The position numbers and the translations under genes were made by a program. From assembly GCA_000753575.1 (NCBI GenBank), contig JRFF01000022.1:161583-225582 (forward strand): a stretch of 64,000 bases of DNA. The letters run 5' to 3'. The notes beneath the pieces are model-generated. The model saw only the letters and a list, made by a program, of their open reading frames with translations. It was not told where the DNA came from and did no database searches. This stretch comes from Candidatus Izimoplasma sp. HR2. GTDB lineage: Bacteria > Bacillota_I > Bacilli_A > Izemoplasmatales > Izemoplasmataceae. Position 1 is the stretch's first letter. Every line of letters begins with the position of its first letter. Of the stretch, positions 5,676 to 50,250 are shown piece after piece.

Positions 5676-5750
5676 GGTCCCGTAGCCAAGTGGCTAAGGC
5701 AATGGACTGCAACTCCGTGACCAGCGGTTCGAATCCGCTCGGGACCTCCA
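5676..5750 (+). tRNA. tRNA-Cys (GCA)
   Basis: GGTCCCG...anticodon loop CTGCAAC...GGTTCGAATCC...CGGGACC-T-CCA cloverleaf. Confidence 0.95.
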
Positions 5751-5864
5751 ATCTTTTCTAACCTAAACACTGTATTAAAGGGATTAAAACACTAAATTGA
5801 TAAGTAGAAATCTTCAACAAATTACCTCGTGAATATCACATGTGTAAAATCCGTTGCCCTAGAT

Positions 5865-6770
5865 TTATGCTTGTTTTTTATTTATATAATATTCCATGGG
5901 AGCTAGTTCCTGGTATATCTCTGAATCAACTTCTATGTTGTAGTGTGTATACCTTCTAGTCATATCCATTCGTGCATGTCCCATAGTGTGATTAGTGAAT
6001 AGTTCTGATACTTTTCTTTTATAAGCTAAGGTACCATAACTATGTCTTATCATATGTGATGAGAACTGTTCTAGTTTTAGATCGTATTTTATCTTCTGTA
6101 GAACTCTCAATACACCTAGGTAATTCATTGGTGATTTCGTTCTACTATTTCGAAGTAAATGATTATGATTACTATCAAGCAGCAAAAGATATTCATACAA
6201 ATGTTTAGCTGTATAATTTGAGTAATGTACTACTCGCTCTTTTTTAGTTTTTGTATGATCAAGAAGAATCGAGTTTGTTTGTGAATTGATATTCTTAATT
6301 TTAATATTTGTTACTTCAGATAATCTTGCACCAGTGTCAATAAACAGGAATAGAATTACTCTGTTTCTAATGTTCATGAAGGTATCAGGCTTATCAAGCA
6401 AAAAATTAATAACTCTTTTCATAGTTTGTTCATCAACAATATCAAATCGTTTGTCAAGTTCTTTTAATTTTGGAAAAGATGATATTATTGTTGGTTTGCA
6501 TTTGCCTTGCTTTACTTGGAAAGTTATTGCTCTATTAAGTAATTGAATTCTTTTGTTAATTGTTTTATTAGTGTTATCTCGGAGTTTAGAATAGTCAATG
6601 AAATCATAAATTGAATCGTAATCAAGATTATCACTATTACTATATTCATTCGTGATCATGAAGTTAATAATGATATTTAGATGTGGAGTATCATATCTTT
6701 TAAATGTATTCCAACTTTTAAAATGCTTTGAGTACTTAAGATACTCAGCACATATAATATCTAAATCCAT
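5865..6770 (-). CDS. Tyrosine recombinase/integrase
   Basis: IDTGARLSEVTNIK; SSHMIRHSYGTLAYKRKVSELFTNHTMGHARMDMTRRYTHY. Confidence 0.95.
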   Translation of the reverse strand: MDLDIICAEYLKYSKHFKSWNTFKRYDTPHLNIIINFMITNEYSNSDNLDYDSIYDFIDYSKLRDNTNKTINKRIQLLNRAITFQVKQGKCKPTIISSFPKLKELDKRFDIVDEQTMKRVINFLLDKPDTFMNIRNRVILFLFIDTGARLSEVTNIKIKNINSQTNSILLDHTKTKKERVVHYSNYTAKHLYEYLLLLDSNHNHLLRNSRTKSPMNYLGVLRVLQKIKYDLKLEQFSSHMIRHSYGTLAYKRKVSELFTNHTMGHARMDMTRRYTHYNIEVDSEIYQELAPMEYYINKKQA

Positions 6771-6970: not shown

Positions 6971-7339
6971 ATGAAATACTTAGGAACTCGACTCAAAGAA
7001 TTAAGAAAAGAGCTGAATAAATCTCAATCTTTTGTAGCTCATGATCTATCAATTGGGCAAACAACATATGCAGGTTATGAATTAGATAAAAGTGAACCTA
7101 GTAATGAAATGTTAATTACACTTTCTGACTATTACAATGTTTCAACTGATTACTTACTAGGGCATTCAAATGTTAAAGCTACTCAGGCTGAAGTAGATTT
7201 TTCTAATAAAATAGAAATAAAAGGAATTGAACAAATGATTAAAGAATATAACTTAACTCTTGGAGATGAAGCAATGGATCCGGGAGAAGAAAAAAAATTG
7301 GTTAAACTAATTAAATTATTTACTGAAAGCAATAATTAG
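6971..7339 (+). CDS. XRE/CI-like transcriptional regulator
   Basis: LGTRLKELRKELNKSQSFVAHDLSIGQTTYAGYELDKSEPSNEMLITLSDYYNVSTDYLLG. Confidence 0.92.
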   Translation: MKYLGTRLKELRKELNKSQSFVAHDLSIGQTTYAGYELDKSEPSNEMLITLSDYYNVSTDYLLGHSNVKATQAEVDFSNKIEIKGIEQMIKEYNLTLGDEAMDPGEEKKLVKLIKLFTESNN

Positions 7340-7992: not shown

Positions 7993-8865
7993 ATGAGTTT
8001 GTTTCAATTTCTACATGCGCCATTGTATAAAGAGTTTAAGTTTAAAATTATTCCTGATGGAAGTAATTATAAAGTTAACGGTGAAACATTTCGTAAGATT
8101 TCAGAACTATTAAATGCATCGAGAGAAAATATATATGATGTATATTGTATTAAGTGTGAAAGAAAAATGTCTTTTTCATCAATTGGTGGTGCGTTAAATA
8201 AGTATAATTTCAGTAATGGAAGACATGCGTTAGAGGTTAGTGGTGGTACTTTTATTAATTCTAATTATAGAATTGAAAAATTAAAAACAATTGGGTCTAT
8301 CACTATGACTTGTTTACATAAAGCTACTCATAAATATGAAATATATTTTGAGACGTATATACAGGATACCAGTTACTTAGTGATTAGAAAGATTGGACAA
8401 ACACCTGAATTATATAAAATCGATAACTTTGAAAACTTTGGGTTTAGAAAGCAACTTGAGAAAATGAAAATTGAAAAAGACTTCAGGGATATTCATGTTA
8501 TGATATCCCATGGATATTCTATTGATACTTTGCTTTATATTAGAAGATTATTAGAAAAAATGATAATGTACTTCCTTAAAGATAAAACCCCTTATGGAGA
8601 TAAGTTTGCGGATAAATTCAAACTAGCACAAGAAGAACATGAATTTTTCGATCCAGAACTAAAGGATATGACAAATGTTGTTTACAAGTTATCTAGTGAA
8701 GGCATACACAGTTTAAAGCATGAACAGTGTGAAGAGTATATTAGACCACTATATAACTTCATTATTTCTCAGCTAGATTACATGAAGGAGCAAGATTTAA
8801 AAAAGATAAAGAAAAGCAAAAATAATAGTGTTATTAATAATTTATTTAGTAAAAAAGTAGACTAG
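7993..8865 (+). CDS. Uncharacterised protein, C-terminal DUF4145-like helical region
   Basis: MSLFQFLHAPLYKEFKFKI start with upstream aaggagag; VVYKLSSEGIHSLKHEQCEEYIRPLYNFIISQLDYM. Confidence 0.7.
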   Translation: MSLFQFLHAPLYKEFKFKIIPDGSNYKVNGETFRKISELLNASRENIYDVYCIKCERKMSFSSIGGALNKYNFSNGRHALEVSGGTFINSNYRIEKLKTIGSITMTCLHKATHKYEIYFETYIQDTSYLVIRKIGQTPELYKIDNFENFGFRKQLEKMKIEKDFRDIHVMISHGYSIDTLLYIRRLLEKMIMYFLKDKTPYGDKFADKFKLAQEEHEFFDPELKDMTNVVYKLSSEGIHSLKHEQCEEYIRPLYNFIISQLDYMKEQDLKKIKKSKNNSVINNLFSKKVD

Positions 8866-9180: not shown

Positions 9181-9279
9181 ATGTCTAAAACTTTAACTGT
9201 AAAAGAAGTAAAAGAGAATGTTGAGAAGATAGACTATATTAAAAAGAAGCTAGAAGAAATTAAAAAGAATAGTGTATAA
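9181..9279 (+). CDS. Small coiled-coil ORF (32 aa)
   Basis: SD agggaggtag; MSKTLTVKEVKENVEKIDYIKKKLEEIKKNSV. Confidence 0.5.
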   Translation: MSKTLTVKEVKENVEKIDYIKKKLEEIKKNSV

Positions 9280-9305
9280 TAATTAATAGAGGAGGGGGGG
9301 ATTAT

Positions 9306-9800
9306 ATGTCTAAGATAAAACATACGTTCAAAGATATTCCAATTATAGTTAATGATGGACCTGCTATGTTTGCACCAATTTTAGTTAGCAATAAATATTG
9401 TTATAATGACACGTATTTTTCTTATTACGAAGTAGATGTTTATATAGAGAGTAATTTAGACTATTTAACTATTAAAGCATACTTTAAAAGTGAAGCTGGT
9501 GTAATTATTGAAAGTAATGAATTGACAAAGACAAATCTAATAGAGGGAAATACCTATCGTTATAAGTTTGAAGTAGTTCATGATGATGACATAGCAACAT
9601 GTAATCTTGAAGACAATTTACTTTATTTTCCTGAGCAAACAATGACATCTGCATGTACTGGTGATTGTGTGATAACTAGTAATAATGATAACTTGACAAG
9701 CGCAAACAATTCAATAATTCTTGGTCTAATTGGAATTTTTGTCGGAGTTATTATTTTATTAGGGTTACATAAATATAAATCGCGTAATCAAAAAGAATAG
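9306..9800 (+). CDS. C-terminally membrane-anchored protein (paralog of 7364-7873)
   Basis: Colinear with the 7364 product: GPAMFAPILVSNKYCYNDTYFSYYEVDVYIE..., CTGDC, C-terminal TM. Confidence 0.8.
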   Translation: MSKIKHTFKDIPIIVNDGPAMFAPILVSNKYCYNDTYFSYYEVDVYIESNLDYLTIKAYFKSEAGVIIESNELTKTNLIEGNTYRYKFEVVHDDDIATCNLEDNLLYFPEQTMTSACTGDCVITSNNDNLTSANNSIILGLIGIFVGVIILLGLHKYKSRNQKE

Positions 9801-9930
9801 TATAAATAGTAAGGAGTGAATAAATTGCTAGAATTTGTAAAGTATAGGTATTTAATCATGACAATCAAATAAGAATGGACAAGTTTTTTGAAATCGAAAA
9901 AAGAGATTCTAAAAAAGGAAGGAAGATAAC

Positions 9931-10569
9931 ATGGAGTATTTATTTTATCTAATACCAGGTATAATCAATATAAAATTATTTAGGTACTTTAGGAAAACAA
10001 TTCCCAAAGAACAGGAAGTTTTAGCACAAACAATTGATTTGATCATCTCATCAGTAACTGTATATTTCTTTTCACTAGTTTTTTTAATTGTAAGATTCAA
10101 GATAGACTATCAAGATGGATTAGTAACTAGTCTTCAAAATTTGAAGATATTAGAGTATATAACTAATGAAGAAATTATAATTATAGCTTCACTACTAATT
10201 GTTCCCTCAATATTGACATTGGGAGTATACTTATTAGCTAGTTTGATAAGTGGGAAAATGAATAATACATCACTAGGATCCAATGCATATATAGAGTACT
10301 TTACCAAAACATCTGAGTATAAAGTTGAGGGTGATAATAAAACATATAGCTTTCCAGTAAAAATTTTTCATGAGGATAAACCAATTACAAAAGGTAGAAT
10401 GATATCAAAATATTCTCTCCCATGGGAATTTAAAGAAGTATTTGTTGAAAATGATGAGAAATTAGACTTTAAGAAGTTAGAAAAAGTATACACGTATTAT
10501 GATTTTGAATCTAAAATCAAATATGAGATATTCACTAATGATGAGAAAGGAGAAAATGATGTCAAATAG
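9931..10569 (+). CDS. Membrane protein, DUF6338-like
   Basis: YLFYLIPGIINIKLFRYFRK N-terminus, several TM segments, cytosolic tail. Confidence 0.6.
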   Translation: MEYLFYLIPGIINIKLFRYFRKTIPKEQEVLAQTIDLIISSVTVYFFSLVFLIVRFKIDYQDGLVTSLQNLKILEYITNEEIIIIASLLIVPSILTLGVYLLASLISGKMNNTSLGSNAYIEYFTKTSEYKVEGDNKTYSFPVKIFHEDKPITKGRMISKYSLPWEFKEVFVENDEKLDFKKLEKVYTYYDFESKIKYEIFTNDEKGENDVK

Positions 10570-10750
10570 AAGAAGCATTATTACACATGGTTCAAGAAGT
10601 GGAACACAAACTAGAGTTGTTTCAGGGGATAGAGTTACTTCAGGAGATAGACGTCGAGTAAATGATGGATTAACAAGAGGACAATCAACAATAGTTACTT
10701 CTCCTGGTAAACCAGCAAATGCTCCGAAGAGACCAAAAGTTAAGAAATAA
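10559..10750 (+). CDS. Small basic protein (63 aa), overlaps stop of upstream gene
   Basis: MSNRRSIITHGSRSGTQTRVVSGDRVTSGDRRRVNDGLTRGQSTIVTSPGKPANAPKRPKVKK; SD agaaaggaga. Confidence 0.65.
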   Translation: MSNRRSIITHGSRSGTQTRVVSGDRVTSGDRRRVNDGLTRGQSTIVTSPGKPANAPKRPKVKK

Positions 10751-10782
10751 GATAAAAAGTATATAGCTACAGCAATGCTAAC

Positions 10783-10820
10783 TAAAGAGTAAGTCATATA
10801 TTTATGGCTTATTTTTTTTA
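10783..10820 (+). terminator. Terminator hairpin (copy 1 of repeated family)
   Basis: AGAGTAAGTCATATATTTATGGCTTATTTTTTTT. Confidence 0.65.
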
Positions 10821-10912
10821 CGTTTAACATAAATCTAAATTTTTGATTATTTAATTTTTGACACTAAAATATGAAAATGATATAATTAACTACATAGAGG
10901 AGGAGTGATTTT

Positions 10913-11134
10913 ATGAGTAATAGTAGACATGTAACACCAAAAGGAGATAAGTGGCAAGTGAAAAAAGGTGGAGCTTCTAGAGCTTCCGGTATATTTGACA
11001 CTCAAGCAGAAGCGATAGACTCTGGTAGAAGCCAAGCTAAAGCAAATAAAGAGGAGTTTGTAATACATAATAGAGAGGGTCGAATAAGACAAAAAGATAG
11101 TTATGGAAATGACCCTAGAAAATCGAAGGGTTAA
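10913..11134 (+). CDS. DUF2188 domain protein
   Basis: HVTPKGDKWQVKKGGASRASGIFDTQAEAIDSGRSQAKANKEEFVIHNREGRIRQKDSYGNDP. Confidence 0.85.
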   Translation: MSNSRHVTPKGDKWQVKKGGASRASGIFDTQAEAIDSGRSQAKANKEEFVIHNREGRIRQKDSYGNDPRKSKG

Positions 11135-11136
11135 GA

Positions 11137-11397
11137 ATGGGCTGGCTATATTTAGTTATTGTACTTATGATTATTTTAACGATTTTTGGAGCTTTATTTA
11201 AAACTGATAATAGATTAAAAGCTGTAAGTCAGTGGACAAAAGATGGAAGATTTATTTCTAATTTCCGTTCAATTACTGAAGCTTCACAACATACAAATGT
11301 ATCCTACTCAGGTATTGGTAATTGTTGTAGAGGAACTCAAAAGACAAGTGGTGGATATGTATGGAAATATGGAAATTATAAAATTGAGCAATCTTAG
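11137..11397 (+). CDS. TM-anchored NUMOD1-like protein
   Basis: N-terminal TM; VSQWTKDGRFISNFRSITEASQHTNVSYSGIGNCCRGTQKTSGGYVWKY. Confidence 0.7.
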   Translation: MGWLYLVIVLMIILTIFGALFKTDNRLKAVSQWTKDGRFISNFRSITEASQHTNVSYSGIGNCCRGTQKTSGGYVWKYGNYKIEQS

Positions 11398-11497
11398 TAG
11401 ATTGCTTTTTTTATGAAAAGTAGAAATACCATAAAAAAAAGCTAATATTATTAGCTTCTTAATTTAAGAAATAAAGAGAGGTAGCCACGACTAAACA

Positions 11498-11551
11498 TTA
11501 GACTATGGGGCCCACATCCTTCTTCATAAGAGCTTGTAAAATAGCTTCCAT
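11498..11551 (-). CDS. Candidate small peptide gene MEAILQALMKKDVGPIV
   Basis: Strong SD AGGGAGGTGG 6 nt upstream; downstream hairpin AAGCTAATAATATTAGCTTTTTTTT. Confidence 0.35.
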   Translation of the reverse strand: MEAILQALMKKDVGPIV

Positions 11552-11714
11552 AAAGAACCACCTCCCTTTTGTTTGGCTCTATCATAAATGATACGCCTAT
11601 TCTAATTTTATCATACATATATTAATTAACCTAAATGATAGAGGATATTTTATAGAGTTTGGACAATTATATATTTTAAGTTATAATAGATTAGTATAAA
11701 AGAGGGGGAATTAT

Positions 11715-14435: not shown

Positions 14436-15089
14436 ATGAAAAAATTTATTATTGGATTTAGTGTCGTAGTTACAATATCTTTGATAAGTTACTTTCTATT
14501 TTTCAGTGTTAGATACACAATGTATGAAAAAGTAAATTTAGAGGATTACATGGAAGATTATAATATTTCAGAAATTTATGACATGCAAAGTTTTTATATG
14601 GAGGATGTTGTAACTGATTTAGCATTTAGAGGCGAAGAATATCGGCCTTGGAATTACTTATTGATACATGCAGCTTTTACTAAGTATGCAGAAGGCAGCC
14701 TTGCTTTAAGTAATGACGGGAAACTATCTCTGTTTATTGTACCTAGGACAAAAAGATTCGATATACTATATCTTGATGAATATGTATTCCCGAGTCAAGA
14801 AGTTGTTCTAGCAGAACTTGACAAACTTCAGGAAATGACTGCATATGATATCACTTATATAACTGAACCAAAAAATTCATTCATTATTGATCCTCGCATT
14901 AAGGTTTTTGATATTCAAGATAAACTAGGTGATGAATTTGAAATGGCAACTTTATATGCTCTAAGTGTAGCCGATATTAATGAAAATGGTACCGAAGTAT
15001 TTTTAATTATAGGTGAAGATAATACATATGCGTTTATCGAATATGATGTATATGAAAATGAAGTGTCTTTATATCATATATTTGAGTAA
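14436..15089 (+). CDS. Membrane-anchored protein of unknown function
   Basis: N-terminal TM, SD, follows the C39-like gene. Confidence 0.6.
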   Translation: MKKFIIGFSVVVTISLISYFLFFSVRYTMYEKVNLEDYMEDYNISEIYDMQSFYMEDVVTDLAFRGEEYRPWNYLLIHAAFTKYAEGSLALSNDGKLSLFIVPRTKRFDILYLDEYVFPSQEVVLAELDKLQEMTAYDITYITEPKNSFIIDPRIKVFDIQDKLGDEFEMATLYALSVADINENGTEVFLIIGEDNTYAFIEYDVYENEVSLYHIFE

Positions 15090-15162: not shown

Positions 15163-15203
15163 TAAAGAATAAGTCATGTATTCATGGCTTATTCTTTTAT
15201 CTT
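15163..15203 (+). terminator. Terminator hairpin (copy 2 of repeated family)
   Basis: AAGAATAAGTCATGTATTCATGGCTTATTCTTTTA. Confidence 0.7.
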
Positions 15204-15270
15204 TAACTAGGATCACAAATTAACTTTAATTGATACTAGCTAAAAGCAACTATTTATAGGAGTAAGTAAA

Positions 15271-15530
15271 CTAGCTAACGACAGCTAGGTAAACCATGTC
15301 GCTGTGGTAACTGTTATAAAACCTTGAAACATCAATCATGAAATGAATACCAACGGTATGGAATACATAACAGAAAAAGAAGAAGAAGAGACGCACGTTC
15401 GTGCGTCTCTTTCGTTTGTCCAAGGCTTCGCAAGAAGCCTGAGCCGACATACAAAATTCTATGTCGCAATAAACTAGACATTTCGGAGCAATATCATGAT
15501 TATGAAATGTTCTCATTCATGATCATTCGA
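15271..15530. other. Hairpin-dense noncoding region (candidate replication origin/packaging signal or structured RNA)
   Basis: At least six perfect stem-loops in ~260 bp, at a strand-switch. Confidence 0.6.
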
Positions 15531-15781
15531 AGAACCCATAACAAATAAGATACTTGCAACCCTATGATATTCCTAGAAAGAGTTAATACTTTAGTTACAT
15601 ATATCTTCGATATATATTAATAAGTTACTTATTATCTCTAACCTATTTCACTTGATTTTAACCTGTTATGCTTCTATTCGCTAATCTATTATACATATAG
15701 GCATTAAAAAAGCACTCATGAGAGTGCAATTCATTATGGTTAAAGGGAAAGAGCCACTCATTGAGAGTGACTTAATTTATC

Positions 15782-17125
15782 TTACATATGGTCTAGGTTC
15801 GACTTGAACCATGCCTTAGCTTTAGCCTTAGTTTTAAAGTTTGGTACATTGTCATGAGCTACTGGACTAGATAAAGTGTAGAACATGTGCTTTTTATTAC
15901 TTCTACTTTGATTTTCTTCAGCTGATAACTTTGGACTAGGTTCAGTATGCTTCAGTACTTTATTAAATCTACTACTTGGATGTTCACTATCGTGGATGAA
16001 GTCCTTAAATTGGATCAATGATACCATATGTTCTGCATGATTCATGTTACCAGTATTTGCGATAGCTTGTAGTACTTCTTCCTTTCCATGTGATTTCACT
16101 AGGTTATGGATCGATTCCATTTTATGGTTGGTTAGAGTATTGATAGGATCCATTACTCTACCTTTTGACATAATGTTCCAGAATGTAGCAACTTGTACTA
16201 TGTCCTGGTGTGTAATTCCTTCAGGGTCTTTTTTATGTGCAAGAGCTACTTCATTAGTCTTGCGTTGTTCCCCTTCAGTTTTATTTCGATCGATAACCTG
16301 TGATTGGTTGGCAGCGCTTTTTGAATCGGATTTACCGCTAATAATCTTATCTTTATCTTTCGTGAACGTAATAAATTGTTGTATTTTGATTAATAACCAG
16401 TGGAAGTAGTGCTTCAGTTTCCCTGGAGTCTCTTTTAAGAGCTGTTTGATTTTAGTTAGTTGTTCCTTTTGCTTATCAGTAAGAAAGTCTGTGTATGCTT
16501 CGATTTCTACTATTCTAGCTTCAGGAGTTACATTGTTTTGATAACAGAAATGTATAAAGTCTTTATGTTTCCTATTCTTCATGAACGTATAGAACTCATG
16601 AGTTAATTGTTGATTCATGTTTCCGTCTGAAGGTCTAATAACTCGATAGTTATATAATTGCTTCAGTGCGTATTGATCCTCACGAGAAATTTTGTATTTA
16701 CGTATAAAATCATTTAACTTTTCAGGTGTGAAGATGTGTAAGAACTCGTATGTTCTTTGAGATAGTCTGAAGACATTAGCTCCAGCTTTCTCATGAGCTC
16801 TTGTAACATGTATATCAAGGATTCTTTCCAGGGATCTAATTATATTATATGATTGGGATTCACAACGATTGATTACTTTTGAAATTTGCCATGCAGGAAA
16901 ATAGATCTTCTCTTGAGCTCTTTTTTTAGAATCCTTTTCAGTAAAATACATCATACGTGAGATGATTGCATTAAAAAGTCCAACAGCTCCACGTACATAG
17001 GGTATGTTGAATGAGTTAGGTATATTTACACCCTGGATGGCTACAACTTTGACTTTCTTATAAGTTCCTTCAGAAGATACATACTTTAATGTTGATTTCT
17101 CTATTGGTTGGTAAGCTGTACTCAT
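15782..17125 (-). CDS. Uncharacterised protein, possible winged-helix replication initiator
   Basis: N-terminal region NIPYVRGAVGLFNAIISR...FPAWQISKVINRCESQSYNIIRSLERILDIHV reads as HTH-like; adjacent to hairpin locus and long palindrome. Confidence 0.4.
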   Translation of the reverse strand: MSTAYQPIEKSTLKYVSSEGTYKKVKVVAIQGVNIPNSFNIPYVRGAVGLFNAIISRMMYFTEKDSKKRAQEKIYFPAWQISKVINRCESQSYNIIRSLERILDIHVTRAHEKAGANVFRLSQRTYEFLHIFTPEKLNDFIRKYKISREDQYALKQLYNYRVIRPSDGNMNQQLTHEFYTFMKNRKHKDFIHFCYQNNVTPEARIVEIEAYTDFLTDKQKEQLTKIKQLLKETPGKLKHYFHWLLIKIQQFITFTKDKDKIISGKSDSKSAANQSQVIDRNKTEGEQRKTNEVALAHKKDPEGITHQDIVQVATFWNIMSKGRVMDPINTLTNHKMESIHNLVKSHGKEEVLQAIANTGNMNHAEHMVSLIQFKDFIHDSEHPSSRFNKVLKHTEPSPKLSAEENQSRSNKKHMFYTLSSPVAHDNVPNFKTKAKAKAWFKSNLDHM

Positions 17126-17232: not shown

Positions 17233-17317
17233 TTGGCTTATTTAAGGCTTGAAAGAATAGTATTTTTTGGAATAATGTATGTAGGATGATATAATTTATT
17301 TAAAGGAGGTGAATGAT

Positions 17318-17602
17318 ATGGGCGTATTCTTAATAACATACGACTTAATTAAAGATAAAGATTATAAAAAATTATTTGAAAAACTAGAATCTTATGGGAC
17401 TTATTCACATTGCTTAGAAAGTGTTTGGATGATTGAGTCTTCTGATGCTGCTGCAACAATTAGAAAATATATTGAAACTGCTATGGATTCTGATGATAAG
17501 ATATTAGTTTGTCGTTTAAGCGGAAATTGGTCTTCAAATAATTTAAGGAAAAAAACAAATGAATGGTTACATAATAGAACATTTAATTGTAGTTGCGAAT
17601 AA
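17318..17602 (+). CDS. Orphan Cas2-like (SinR-type) protein
   Basis: MGVFLITYDLIKDKDYKKLFEKLESYGTYSHCLESVWMIESSDAAATIRKYIETAMDSDDKILVCRLSGNW; SD aaaggaggtg. Confidence 0.8.
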   Translation: MGVFLITYDLIKDKDYKKLFEKLESYGTYSHCLESVWMIESSDAAATIRKYIETAMDSDDKILVCRLSGNWSSNNLRKKTNEWLHNRTFNCSCE

Positions 17603-23979: not shown

Positions 23980-26163
23980 TTATGTTTTACCTGCATTTTT
24001 AAATAGTTTGTATTTACTATTTAATTTTTTACTAATATGTTCCTGCCATTTTTCAACAATATCTTTTGTAGTCATGAACTCAATATCATCTTCACTTGCA
24101 ATACTTCTGAGTTTGTCTAAAGTTAATTTTTTTAGCTTACCACGATTATGATCATGAGCTACTAACTTCTTAATCAACCTTTTTTTGTAAAAAATAAAAG
24201 TATAACGTAACGACTTAAACTCAATACCGAAATCAACAGCTAAATGAGATAGTTCTTTATTACTAAGATTTGTAAAGCTAGGAGGAATCATAGATTCTTT
24301 TCTTTGCTTTTCTTTATTCTTCAGCTTTTTAAGTTCTGTTTCTTCTTCCTTCATTTTTTGTAATACAATTGTCATTAAAGCATTAAAAGTAGCGTAGTTC
24401 ATTTCTTGAATATCTTCGAACTTAACTTTAAATCCTTCCCAATTAGGCACGTCCATGAAGTGCATATTCTGGAGGATCTCTTTTGCTTCTCTAATTGTAT
24501 ACATGAAGTGAGTATCATATCTTCCGAAGCAATCAACAATCTTGTTAGTTTGTTTGAAGCCGTAAGTACTATAAGTAGTAACATCACTATTGTTTTCAAG
24601 AATTACTCCAAACTTAGGGAATGAAACTCTCTTTCCAACATCTTTAATATTCTCGTAGATACCTTTATAAAAGATAATGTAACCTTTACTCCACTTAGTT
24701 GCGTCTTTCTGAGAGAGCTTAGATATCTTATGTTTTATTTGATATATTTTTCTTGTGAATCGCTTCTCAACAACATTTAGTTTTATAGAACTTCGATAGA
24801 TCCAACGTTTAAATTCTAGAAGTAAGATCCTTGTACTAATTAAATGCAATTTATATCTTGAAGTTTTATCTTCAGGAAGTTTCGAAGCGTTATATTTTAA
24901 GCGATTAATTTTTGCTTTGATACTCTTCTCAATAGTATTTAGTTTTCTAGCTTTTCGATTATTTTTCCTTGTAGCTAGTTTTTGTATTATGTAAATATTT
25001 TTAGAACTACGGTAGATCCAACGTTCAAATTCAAGTAGAAAGATTCTGAATTTCTTTAATTGTGATCTAAGTTTAATTATTGATCTACTAAATGTAGCTG
25101 TAGATCTAAATTTCATTTTAAATATGTGCTGATAACCTGGGTATAATTCTCTAAGAGCTTTTAATGTTCTTGTTGCGCTTTGTGTGATTCCGTAAAGAAA
25201 TACTTCCTCACGTAAGATATGCCCAGCTGTAGTATAAAATTCTCTTATACCTGATTCATCTTTGAAATACTCTCCTTCAGTTTTATCAGTGTTTGAGTAG
25301 AAGATTGCTGTTTCAGTTTCAATTATGAATCCACGTTTTGGGAATGGAATCGCTGTTACCTCTTTTAACTTGAAGTAGTCCTGGGACAACTTCTTAGAAA
25401 ATAGTCTTTCGATTTTCCCTGACTTTTTAATTATTTCAAATGATTCTAGTATGGGTTGATTACTCATGATGAAGTTTGGTACATAGTGATGATACATGTA
25501 TAAAATAGTATATCTTTTTAACATGTCTAGAAAATGTAATCCCCCTGGAGTAAGTCCATCTTGGAAAGCAACGTCAGGAGTATATTTATCTTTTCTATAT
25601 TTCCAACTGTGGAAGTGCTCTTTTAGATCTATTTTCTTCTTCCAATAATCAGCTATAAAACAATCATTTTCCTTTATCATTTCACTAAAGACTAGATTGA
25701 TTCTATATTCACTGGCCACAAAGAATTTTTTACCATTCTTATTAAGCCATTTTTTTATAAGTTCAAAATCATATATATAAAGATCATGTTCAAGTTTCGA
25801 CAGTTCTTTTCTTTCACGTTTAAGTATGTACTCTCTTGCAATCATTGCAGCTCCAACAGTAGAGGAATCTTTTCCTGATCTTACAGAGCCTGATATTTGA
25901 TTAATCTTTGCAAGTTTGTTTACTATTACATCAGCTGACTTTTTACGATTGAACCACAGTACTATTCTCTCTATAAATGTTTTGTAAATAATAATGATGA
26001 ATAGTAGTATTGGTAGTCCGTACATAACAAGCTCAATCATGAAGTCCGCAACTTGATCCAAAGACCAGTTGTCTAGTGAGTATTGCCAAATAACAAATAG
26101 TATAGTGAGTAGAATTGCAATTACGATAACTTTCCAAAATAGTCTATTTATAAGTTTTATCAT
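23980..26163 (-). CDS. Membrane-anchored P-loop ATPase, Zot/pI- or VirD4-like assembly/secretion ATPase candidate
   Basis: Two N-terminal TM helices, Walker-A-like SGSVRSGKDSST, then GFIIETETAIFYSN...FLYGITQSATRTLKALREL. Confidence 0.6.
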   Translation of the reverse strand: MIKLINRLFWKVIVIAILLTILFVIWQYSLDNWSLDQVADFMIELVMYGLPILLFIIIIYKTFIERIVLWFNRKKSADVIVNKLAKINQISGSVRSGKDSSTVGAAMIAREYILKRERKELSKLEHDLYIYDFELIKKWLNKNGKKFFVASEYRINLVFSEMIKENDCFIADYWKKKIDLKEHFHSWKYRKDKYTPDVAFQDGLTPGGLHFLDMLKRYTILYMYHHYVPNFIMSNQPILESFEIIKKSGKIERLFSKKLSQDYFKLKEVTAIPFPKRGFIIETETAIFYSNTDKTEGEYFKDESGIREFYTTAGHILREEVFLYGITQSATRTLKALRELYPGYQHIFKMKFRSTATFSRSIIKLRSQLKKFRIFLLEFERWIYRSSKNIYIIQKLATRKNNRKARKLNTIEKSIKAKINRLKYNASKLPEDKTSRYKLHLISTRILLLEFKRWIYRSSIKLNVVEKRFTRKIYQIKHKISKLSQKDATKWSKGYIIFYKGIYENIKDVGKRVSFPKFGVILENNSDVTTYSTYGFKQTNKIVDCFGRYDTHFMYTIREAKEILQNMHFMDVPNWEGFKVKFEDIQEMNYATFNALMTIVLQKMKEEETELKKLKNKEKQRKESMIPPSFTNLSNKELSHLAVDFGIEFKSLRYTFIFYKKRLIKKLVAHDHNRGKLKKLTLDKLRSIASEDDIEFMTTKDIVEKWQEHISKKLNSKYKLFKNAGKT

Positions 26164-27513: not shown

Positions 27514-27562
27514 TGGACTGCAACTCCGTGATCAGCGGTTCAAATCCGCTCGGGACCTCCAA
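27514..27562 (+). repeat. attR: partial tRNA-Cys duplicate
   Basis: tggactgcaactccgtgatcagcggttcaaatccgctcgggacctccaa, 47/49 identical to 5703-5751. Confidence 0.93.
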
Positions 27563-49973: not shown

Positions 49974-50115
49974 TATTTAACCTCCCTAATTTTTATTTTA
50001 GTCTATCCTTATTATAATATATTGTAAGCGCTTTTACAATTAAAATTTAGCTTAATTATTATAAATAAGAAATGTCAGAAAACGTTTTTATGTGGTATAA
50101 TATAATTAATAAAAG

Positions 50116-50250
50116 TATTCCGAGCTTACAAGTCTAAGGGTAACTATGACTTCAAAGCCGATGGGTATATAAAGAAATTTATGTGCCTCCCACGTTTGGA
50201 AAGGATTATAGACTTTTTACTCCTTTTTTGGCGTGAAAAGTCTTTTTTTG
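50116..50250 (+). ncRNA. Moco/Tuco-type riboswitch with downstream terminator
   Basis: TTCCGAGCTTACAAG...GTGCCTCCCACGTTTGGAAAGG core, then AGACTTTT...AAAAGTCTTTTTTT; precedes tupA. Confidence 0.8.

Follow-up and report, generated by a model that had tools for sequence, protein, structure and literature searches.

The intergenic region of f1/M13 holds a packaging hairpin and two origins, and O-type initiators usually have their origin inside the initiator gene. In ICEBs1 sso1 and the pBAA1 sso, function depends on stem-loops rather than on sequence, and known sso can differ in sequence (PMC4595007); in pAMbeta1, ssiA is located downstream of ori (PMC5703833). Hairpin origins have usually been found by their activity, whereas here one is indicated by covariation alone, beside an initiator of an almost undescribed family whose hosts are mostly uncultured mycoplasma relatives with few known plasmids or phages.

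The locus is a conserved, structured noncoding element of about 350 bases at 15217..15564 (+ strand) of the window, meaning here the whole 64-kb stretch of DNA that was analysed, which belongs to the 2.1-Mb, 29.5% G+C draft genome of Candidatus Izimoplasma sp. HR2. The first-pass annotation had seen a hairpin-dense noncoding locus at 15271-15530, at the junction of rightward and leftward genes; the whole unit is wider, and it is indeed flanked by the convergent genes 14436-15089 (+) and 15782-17125 (-). Direct inspection of the sequence found every listed stem in its place. Among them are the enclosing stem Pa, CTGTTAT/ATAACAG (15311..15373, + strand like all the stems given here), and the hairpins HL1, ATACC-AAC-GGTAT (15347..15359), H1 (15386..15411), which was correctly positioned but is 12 bp long where 11 bp had been noted, H2, AGGCTTC-GCAA-GAAGCCT (15423..15440), and H3, CGACATA/TATGTCG (15445..15466). 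Most of the listed stems are conserved, but CTAGCT/AGCTAG (15271-15288) and ACATTTC/GAAATGT (15478-15510), although present in the window, are not conserved in relatives; their places are taken by HL2, CGACA/TGTCG (15279..15301), absent from the earlier list, and by H4, TGATTATGAA/TTCATGATCA (15497..15525), whose window copy has one T-G pair. The stretch 15271-15530 holds four perfect hairpins of at least 6 bp, totalling 32 bp, against a shuffle mean of 2.8, and none of 400 dinucleotide shuffles of these 260 bases reached that value. Among 981 260-base stretches of the window, the one starting at 15211 has the most hairpin base pairs. The folding energy of the region lies about 2.2-2.5 s.d. 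below the window trend for G+C, and other places are lower; the excess is one of perfect stems, the overall folding energy being only moderately unusual for the G+C content.

From left to right the conserved order is HL2, Pa, HL1, an A-rich stretch, H1, H2 and then an unpaired motif, CCCATAA..AAAGATA..TGCAACC, followed by a 75% A+T stretch, terminators and the initiator gene. The most conserved unpaired motif, CCCATAACAAATAAGATACTTGCAACC, lies at 15535..15561 (+ strand) and has diverged in the copies of genomes G072 and G012; the pattern CCATANNNAWWAAGATANNTGCAACC is found in the copies of the window, G002, G006 and G016 and in no other locus fetched. The A+T-rich stretch (15565..15705) carries iteron-like YCTRT repeats, with 16 occurrences over six loci against a shuffle mean of 5.3 (0 of 300 shuffles reach 16), which we regard as tentative because the motif was picked by eye, after inspection. 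Terminator-like hairpins close the upstream rightward gene (15164..15197, + strand) and, with a T6 run, follow the initiator gene (15712..15727, - strand). The noncoding assignment stands. An 81-aa open reading frame on the - strand (15271-15516) was considered as a coding alternative and rejected: its resemblance in G002 stems from conservation of the DNA, a 1-nt indel within H2 shifts the frame between the window and G002, and the frame is not kept in the other copies.

Each of the six genomes with the initiator gene, namely that of the window and those of five relatives, has a homologous region directly 3' of it, and the initiator is the only protein, within the element, common to the window and the five other neighbourhoods. 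Homologous regions were found in G002, G006 (two copies), G017, G072, G016 and G012; the relatives include Candidatus Izimaplasma ZiA1, another Izemoplasma MAG, and Bacilli/Mycoplasmatota MAGs. The window and G002 regions are 81% identical over 354 nt. G016 and G012 have no recognisable left part, and in G072 the contig end cuts it off; clear forms of H3 and H4 are confined to the window and G002. Searches of phage and plasmid records with blastn returned no match to the region.

Covariation among homologues had been proposed as a check on the stems, and compensatory changes on both sides are present in H1, H2, HL1 and H3. For this count each copy's own arms were compared, and Watson-Crick pairs of more than one type were scored per pair column. 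All six initiator-linked copies have H1, its sequence being almost wholly different in some of them; 8 of its 11 pair columns show two-sided changes, and its covariation was reached by 0 of 500 shuffles. HL1 becomes AACCTC/GAGGTT in G006 and ACACTC/GAGTGT in G017, with two-sided changes in 4/6 pair columns, and in H2 they occur in three of the five shared columns. The H2 loops of other copies are GACGAAGGA, GAACTAGTGA and GAACACAGTGA, with a tandem G.A conserved on the + strand; the window H2 lacks this tandem and has instead two extra Watson-Crick pairs and a GCAA loop. H3 in G002 is CCGACA/TGTCGG in a shifted register, and more than one pair type occurs in 5/7 columns when the two copies are compared arm to arm across the shift. 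H4 in G002 reads TGATCACAAAC/GTTTGGGATCA. Pa shows a single compensatory change in G002 (CCGTTA/TAACGG) and is weak or remodelled in the others, and HL2, also found in two copies each of G002 and G006, shows little covariation because its sequence is nearly invariant. Each copy's own arms are 98-100% Watson-Crick, whereas a 5' arm set against another copy's 3' arm gives 46-56%. In the model alignment A11, which comprises six rows with the two most divergent copies left out, 95.8% of cells pair, seven pairs show two-sided changes, and the covariation score is 0.371, compared with 0.169 in shuffles (0/500) and at most 0.121 with slid partners; since A11 was fitted to the structure, the hand count of pair columns is the more neutral measure. 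The independent lineages behind these changes are few (six to seven). Because the hairpin shape is kept while the letters change, the region is a real, selected structure, and its conserved, covarying nature is confirmed.

The neighbouring gene (15782..17125, - strand) encodes a 447-aa protein that does look, from its sequence family, like a lambda-O-like replication initiator, in line with the earlier suggestion of a possible initiator next to the hairpins. Homologues with 23-29% identity occur in five Izemoplasmataceae genomes (G002, G006, G012, G016 and G072). Of the six family members, three have a hit to PHROG phrog_345, 'replication initiation O-like' (best 9.5e-8), and one has a hit to phrog_19658, another replication-initiation family; the window protein alone falls below the PHROG threshold and has no match in Pfam, PDB, or phage or plasmid records. 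Its structural model (pLDDT 70) gave weak Foldseek matches, many of them to winged-helix regulators and none below E 0.001, and the C-terminal WN..P..LT..R..SI pattern presumably recalls DnaD/O-type C-terminal domains. A genome-contig search with the single protein found nothing, and a search with the alignment recovered five of these genomes. In four of the six loci a small, helical-looking protein of about 54-73 aa lies upstream of the initiator in the same orientation (L014 6879-7061, L041 5289-5453, L013 14-235 and L012 120-338); it was not seen in the window.

The 3' part of tRNA-Cys forms an attL-like end at 5703..5751 (+) and an attR-like copy at 27514..27562 (+), identical at 47 of 49 positions, and a tyrosine integrase lies just inside the attL-like end (5865..6770, - strand; Pfam Phage_integrase, 1.5e-23); the locus is therefore in an integrated element of 21.8 kb. 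The element also encodes an HTH repressor, Ig-domain surface proteins, a small membrane protein and, at 23980..26163 (-), a 727-aa membrane protein with N-terminal membrane helices and a P-loop-like GxxxxGKD motif (GSVRSGKDS), a putative assembly ATPase with relatives in Izemoplasmatales elements. With its relatives at L027, L028 and L030-L032 it forms a membrane protein family that has this unusual motif, adjoins Ig-domain surface proteins and matched no known family. Also in the window, a 97-aa Cas2-like protein (PF09827, phrog_1090) is encoded at 17309-17602 (+), no further cas gene having been recognised next to it, and a Molybdenum/tungsten cofactor (Moco) riboswitch lies at 50106-50222 (+; 73.5 bits).

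Copies of the region also occur away from the initiator. The covariance model recovered another, almost complete copy in G006 (8056-8421). Its H1 has a mismatch, and the copy is bordered on both sides by hairpins of the 15164-15197 terminator type. Together with G017a, whose contig ends before any visible initiator, this copy is of the full or near-full type that has no adjacent initiator. In G017a H1 is mismatched and H2 is lost. H1 is intact in the initiator-linked copies except for one T-T in G016, whereas copies away from the gene are mostly decayed, through mismatch in G006b and G017a and through loss of halves in G002b and G017b-d, as coupling to the initiator predicts. Direct repeats of the left half alone separate cargo blocks in G017, where there are four copies, and in G002. 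Among the cargo are genes for TIR and AAA_21 proteins, apparently defence genes, and at L074 1626-7922 (G017) a 2098-aa YD-repeat (Rhs-like) protein lies between two left-half copies. Across 49 genomes of the family a second covariance model, R2, found nothing convincing outside these elements, and model R1 gave many weak hits, those inspected being mostly plain terminators.

Some of the units concerned are very small. One unit of G016, 6.9 kb long and flanked by perfect 37-bp tRNA-Arg repeats, carries the initiator and the region and has no recognised integrase; at L010 (~9266-11605) the same genome has two small membrane proteins in alternating tandem copies that start MKWKWNLP and MKWKLNLP. 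Three copies of a tRNA-Arg end bound successive units on one contig of G002 (G002:C75 346-12193; L075, L027): the first tandem unit has an integrase and a Rep_trans/Rol_Rep_N rolling-circle initiator, which belongs to an element other than the one with the hairpin region, and the second has ABC-transporter-like and radical-SAM-like genes and no integrase. In G004 (L015, G004:C36), tRNA-Arg at 7109-7185 (-) is accompanied by further 3'-end copies spaced 0.7-2.3 kb apart, an array of very small integrase-less units with one or two cargo genes per tRNA-end copy. These arrangements suggest that small elements may use the integrase of a larger one.

Does the region act as folded DNA or as RNA, and on which strand? 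The distinct arms comprise 153 Watson-Crick pairs, one G-T and two mismatches, so that one of 154 standard pairs is of this type, compared with 15 G-U among 135 pairs (11%) in six tRNAs of the same contigs; the arms counted come from related copies and are not independent. Structures that work as RNA normally tolerate G-U pairs, a usual rather than a strictly defining property, and the scarcity thus points to DNA. It counts against the main rival reading, a less likely one, in which the region is transcribed rightward (+ strand) into a structured, noncoding RNA of ~300 nt that serves the mobile element as a regulator or replication primer. That reading would suit the several stems with compensatory changes and their complex, partly nested layout, the second G006 copy that stands alone between two terminator-like hairpins, and a TTGATA-N17-TTTATA-like sequence upstream in the window, with a similar one in G002; however, a promoter scan gave no excess and did not list that site, the terminator-like tails of H1 fall midway in the putative RNA, and Rfam returned sub-threshold hits only, with no match at gathering score. 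The scarcity of G-T would look the same in perfectly paired bidirectional terminators, and H1 and its neighbours could be the ordinary termination sequence of the convergent flanking genes, Watson-Crick-only stems being suited to two-way function and T-rich tails following H1 on one or both strands. We consider this unlikely, given that dedicated terminators already exist at 15164-15197 and 15712-15772, that HL1, H2, H3 and H4 have no T tails, although HL1, H2 and H3 covary, and that the unpaired motifs CCCATA..TGCAACC and AAACATCAATCATGAAATGAA are conserved. As to the strand, the H2 loops keep GA...GA with GAA, TA or ACA inside, and three G017 copies have GCA, GAA and GTA as their HL1 loops; both sets suit the + strand and are unfavourable, as TC/TC, on the - strand. 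The + strand loops GAA, GCAA and tandem G.A resemble stable DNA mini-hairpins, but G.A and GNRA-like loops on this strand would suit RNA equally. A possible closing stem, TGTCCA/TAGACA, argues the other way, since it fits the - strand better (U-G there, C-A on the +). On balance we lean to the + strand of the window as the active one.

The origin, packaging signal and structured RNA that had been offered jointly do not fare alike: an origin-associated single-strand structure is favoured over RNA, and packaging ranks below RNA. The likeness to intergenic origins of ssDNA phages is not established, and it is improbable that the region serves a filamentous-phage-like (inovirus) element or its satellites as plus-strand origin and packaging signal. 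The gene content of the 21.8-kb element, from integrase and repressor to the surface and P-loop-like proteins, would fit such a phage; similar modules occur in G002 and in G017, where four left-part copies lie downstream on the same contig, and the att-flanked integrase-less G016 unit looks satellite-like. Yet an inovirus identity, suspected from the 727-aa protein, is supported by no search: searches of Pfam, PHROGs, PDB and phage records gave no Zot/pI match (its AlphaFold model, at pLDDT 55, was too poor for structure search), pattern and peptide scans of IMG/VR gave no relative, and no HUH Rep or relaxase was recognised among the element proteins scanned. The loop-favoured strand is, moreover, opposite to the initiator and the structural genes, and a filamentous-phage packaging signal would be expected on the other strand. 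Very improbable is a recombination site, attC-like or a hotspot, for insertion of cargo genes. The direct repeats of the left half between cargo blocks and the nearly full repeat in G006 recall one, and one copy type (G002) happens to have ATCTAAC..GTTGAAC ends, but no integron integrase is present, integration in fact takes place at tRNA 3' ends, and the repeats are explained by homologous recombination and decay. Identity with an integron attC was rejected, the RYYYAAC/GTTRRRY ends being missing from the window, G006 and G017 copies.

The reading that we prefer, with a probability of roughly 45%, is that the region is an origin-associated element acting as folded single-stranded DNA, like an ssi or sso. 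The initiator and the region behave as a replicon, because they are the sole shared content and the structure is kept where the gene is present, and because hairpins beside an A+T-rich stretch are the anatomy of known single-strand-site origins. The region would be the cis-acting half of this replicon, and the adjacent O-like initiator gene its trans-acting half. After excision of the integrated element, the initiator may bind and open the A+T-rich repeats at 15565-15705, and the HL2-HL1-H1-H2-H3-H4 array would fold in the single strand so exposed, probably the window's + strand, to be recognised by its shape as a single-strand initiation site or single-strand origin at which priming or helicase loading starts. 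One counterpoint is the existence of full or near-full copies that have no adjacent initiator. Another is that, if the geometry were that of pAMbeta1, the initiator coding strand would be the one displaced, whereas the H2 loops favour the other. If the region is functional, the initiator with ~550 bp could serve directly as a replicon in genetic tools for Izemoplasmatales, and would show how small integrase-less elements persist beside larger ones. More speculative, and unlikely as a whole, is the extension in which an O-like initiator, instead of an HUH nicking enzyme, reads the shape of an origin folded as single-stranded DNA. This origin would provide small integrase-less elements with their minimal replicon; they would use the same integration sites as a larger filamentous-phage-like element, and repeated copies would let them stack and exchange defence-gene cargo.

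How does the locus compare with the described systems? It shares with the f1/M13 intergenic region the format of a noncoding block (~300-500 nt, 5-6 hairpins) within a compact mobile element, but the window element has no demonstrated pI/Zot or HUH Rep, and the region adjoins the 3' end of the initiator, with a favoured strand opposite to the structural genes. The likeness to lambda-O/DnaD-like initiators lies in the phrog_345 matches of half the family; unlike the usual origin of O-type initiators, the conserved region comes after the initiator gene, and the window protein itself stays below the threshold. In the pAMbeta1 family ori lies downstream of rep and ssiA is a primosome assembly site (PMC5703833); here too the region is 3' of the initiator, with the A+T-rich stretch adjacent and the hairpins beyond, although no relation of the 447-aa initiator to known plasmid initiators was detected and the strand preference of the hairpins misfits the pAMbeta1 geometry. 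Unlike the rolling-circle sso, the region has no sequence match in plasmid or phage records and its element has no recognised HUH Rep or relaxase. Like ICEBs1 sso1 and the pBAA1 sso, however, it is hairpin-rich, of a class of ~200-300 nt with several stem-loops in which structure prevails over sequence, and like the ICEBs1 sso it resides on an integrative element of a Gram-positive-type bacterium (PMC4595007); stem-loops conserved in structure, the mark of single-strand origins and initiation sites, are what the region displays.
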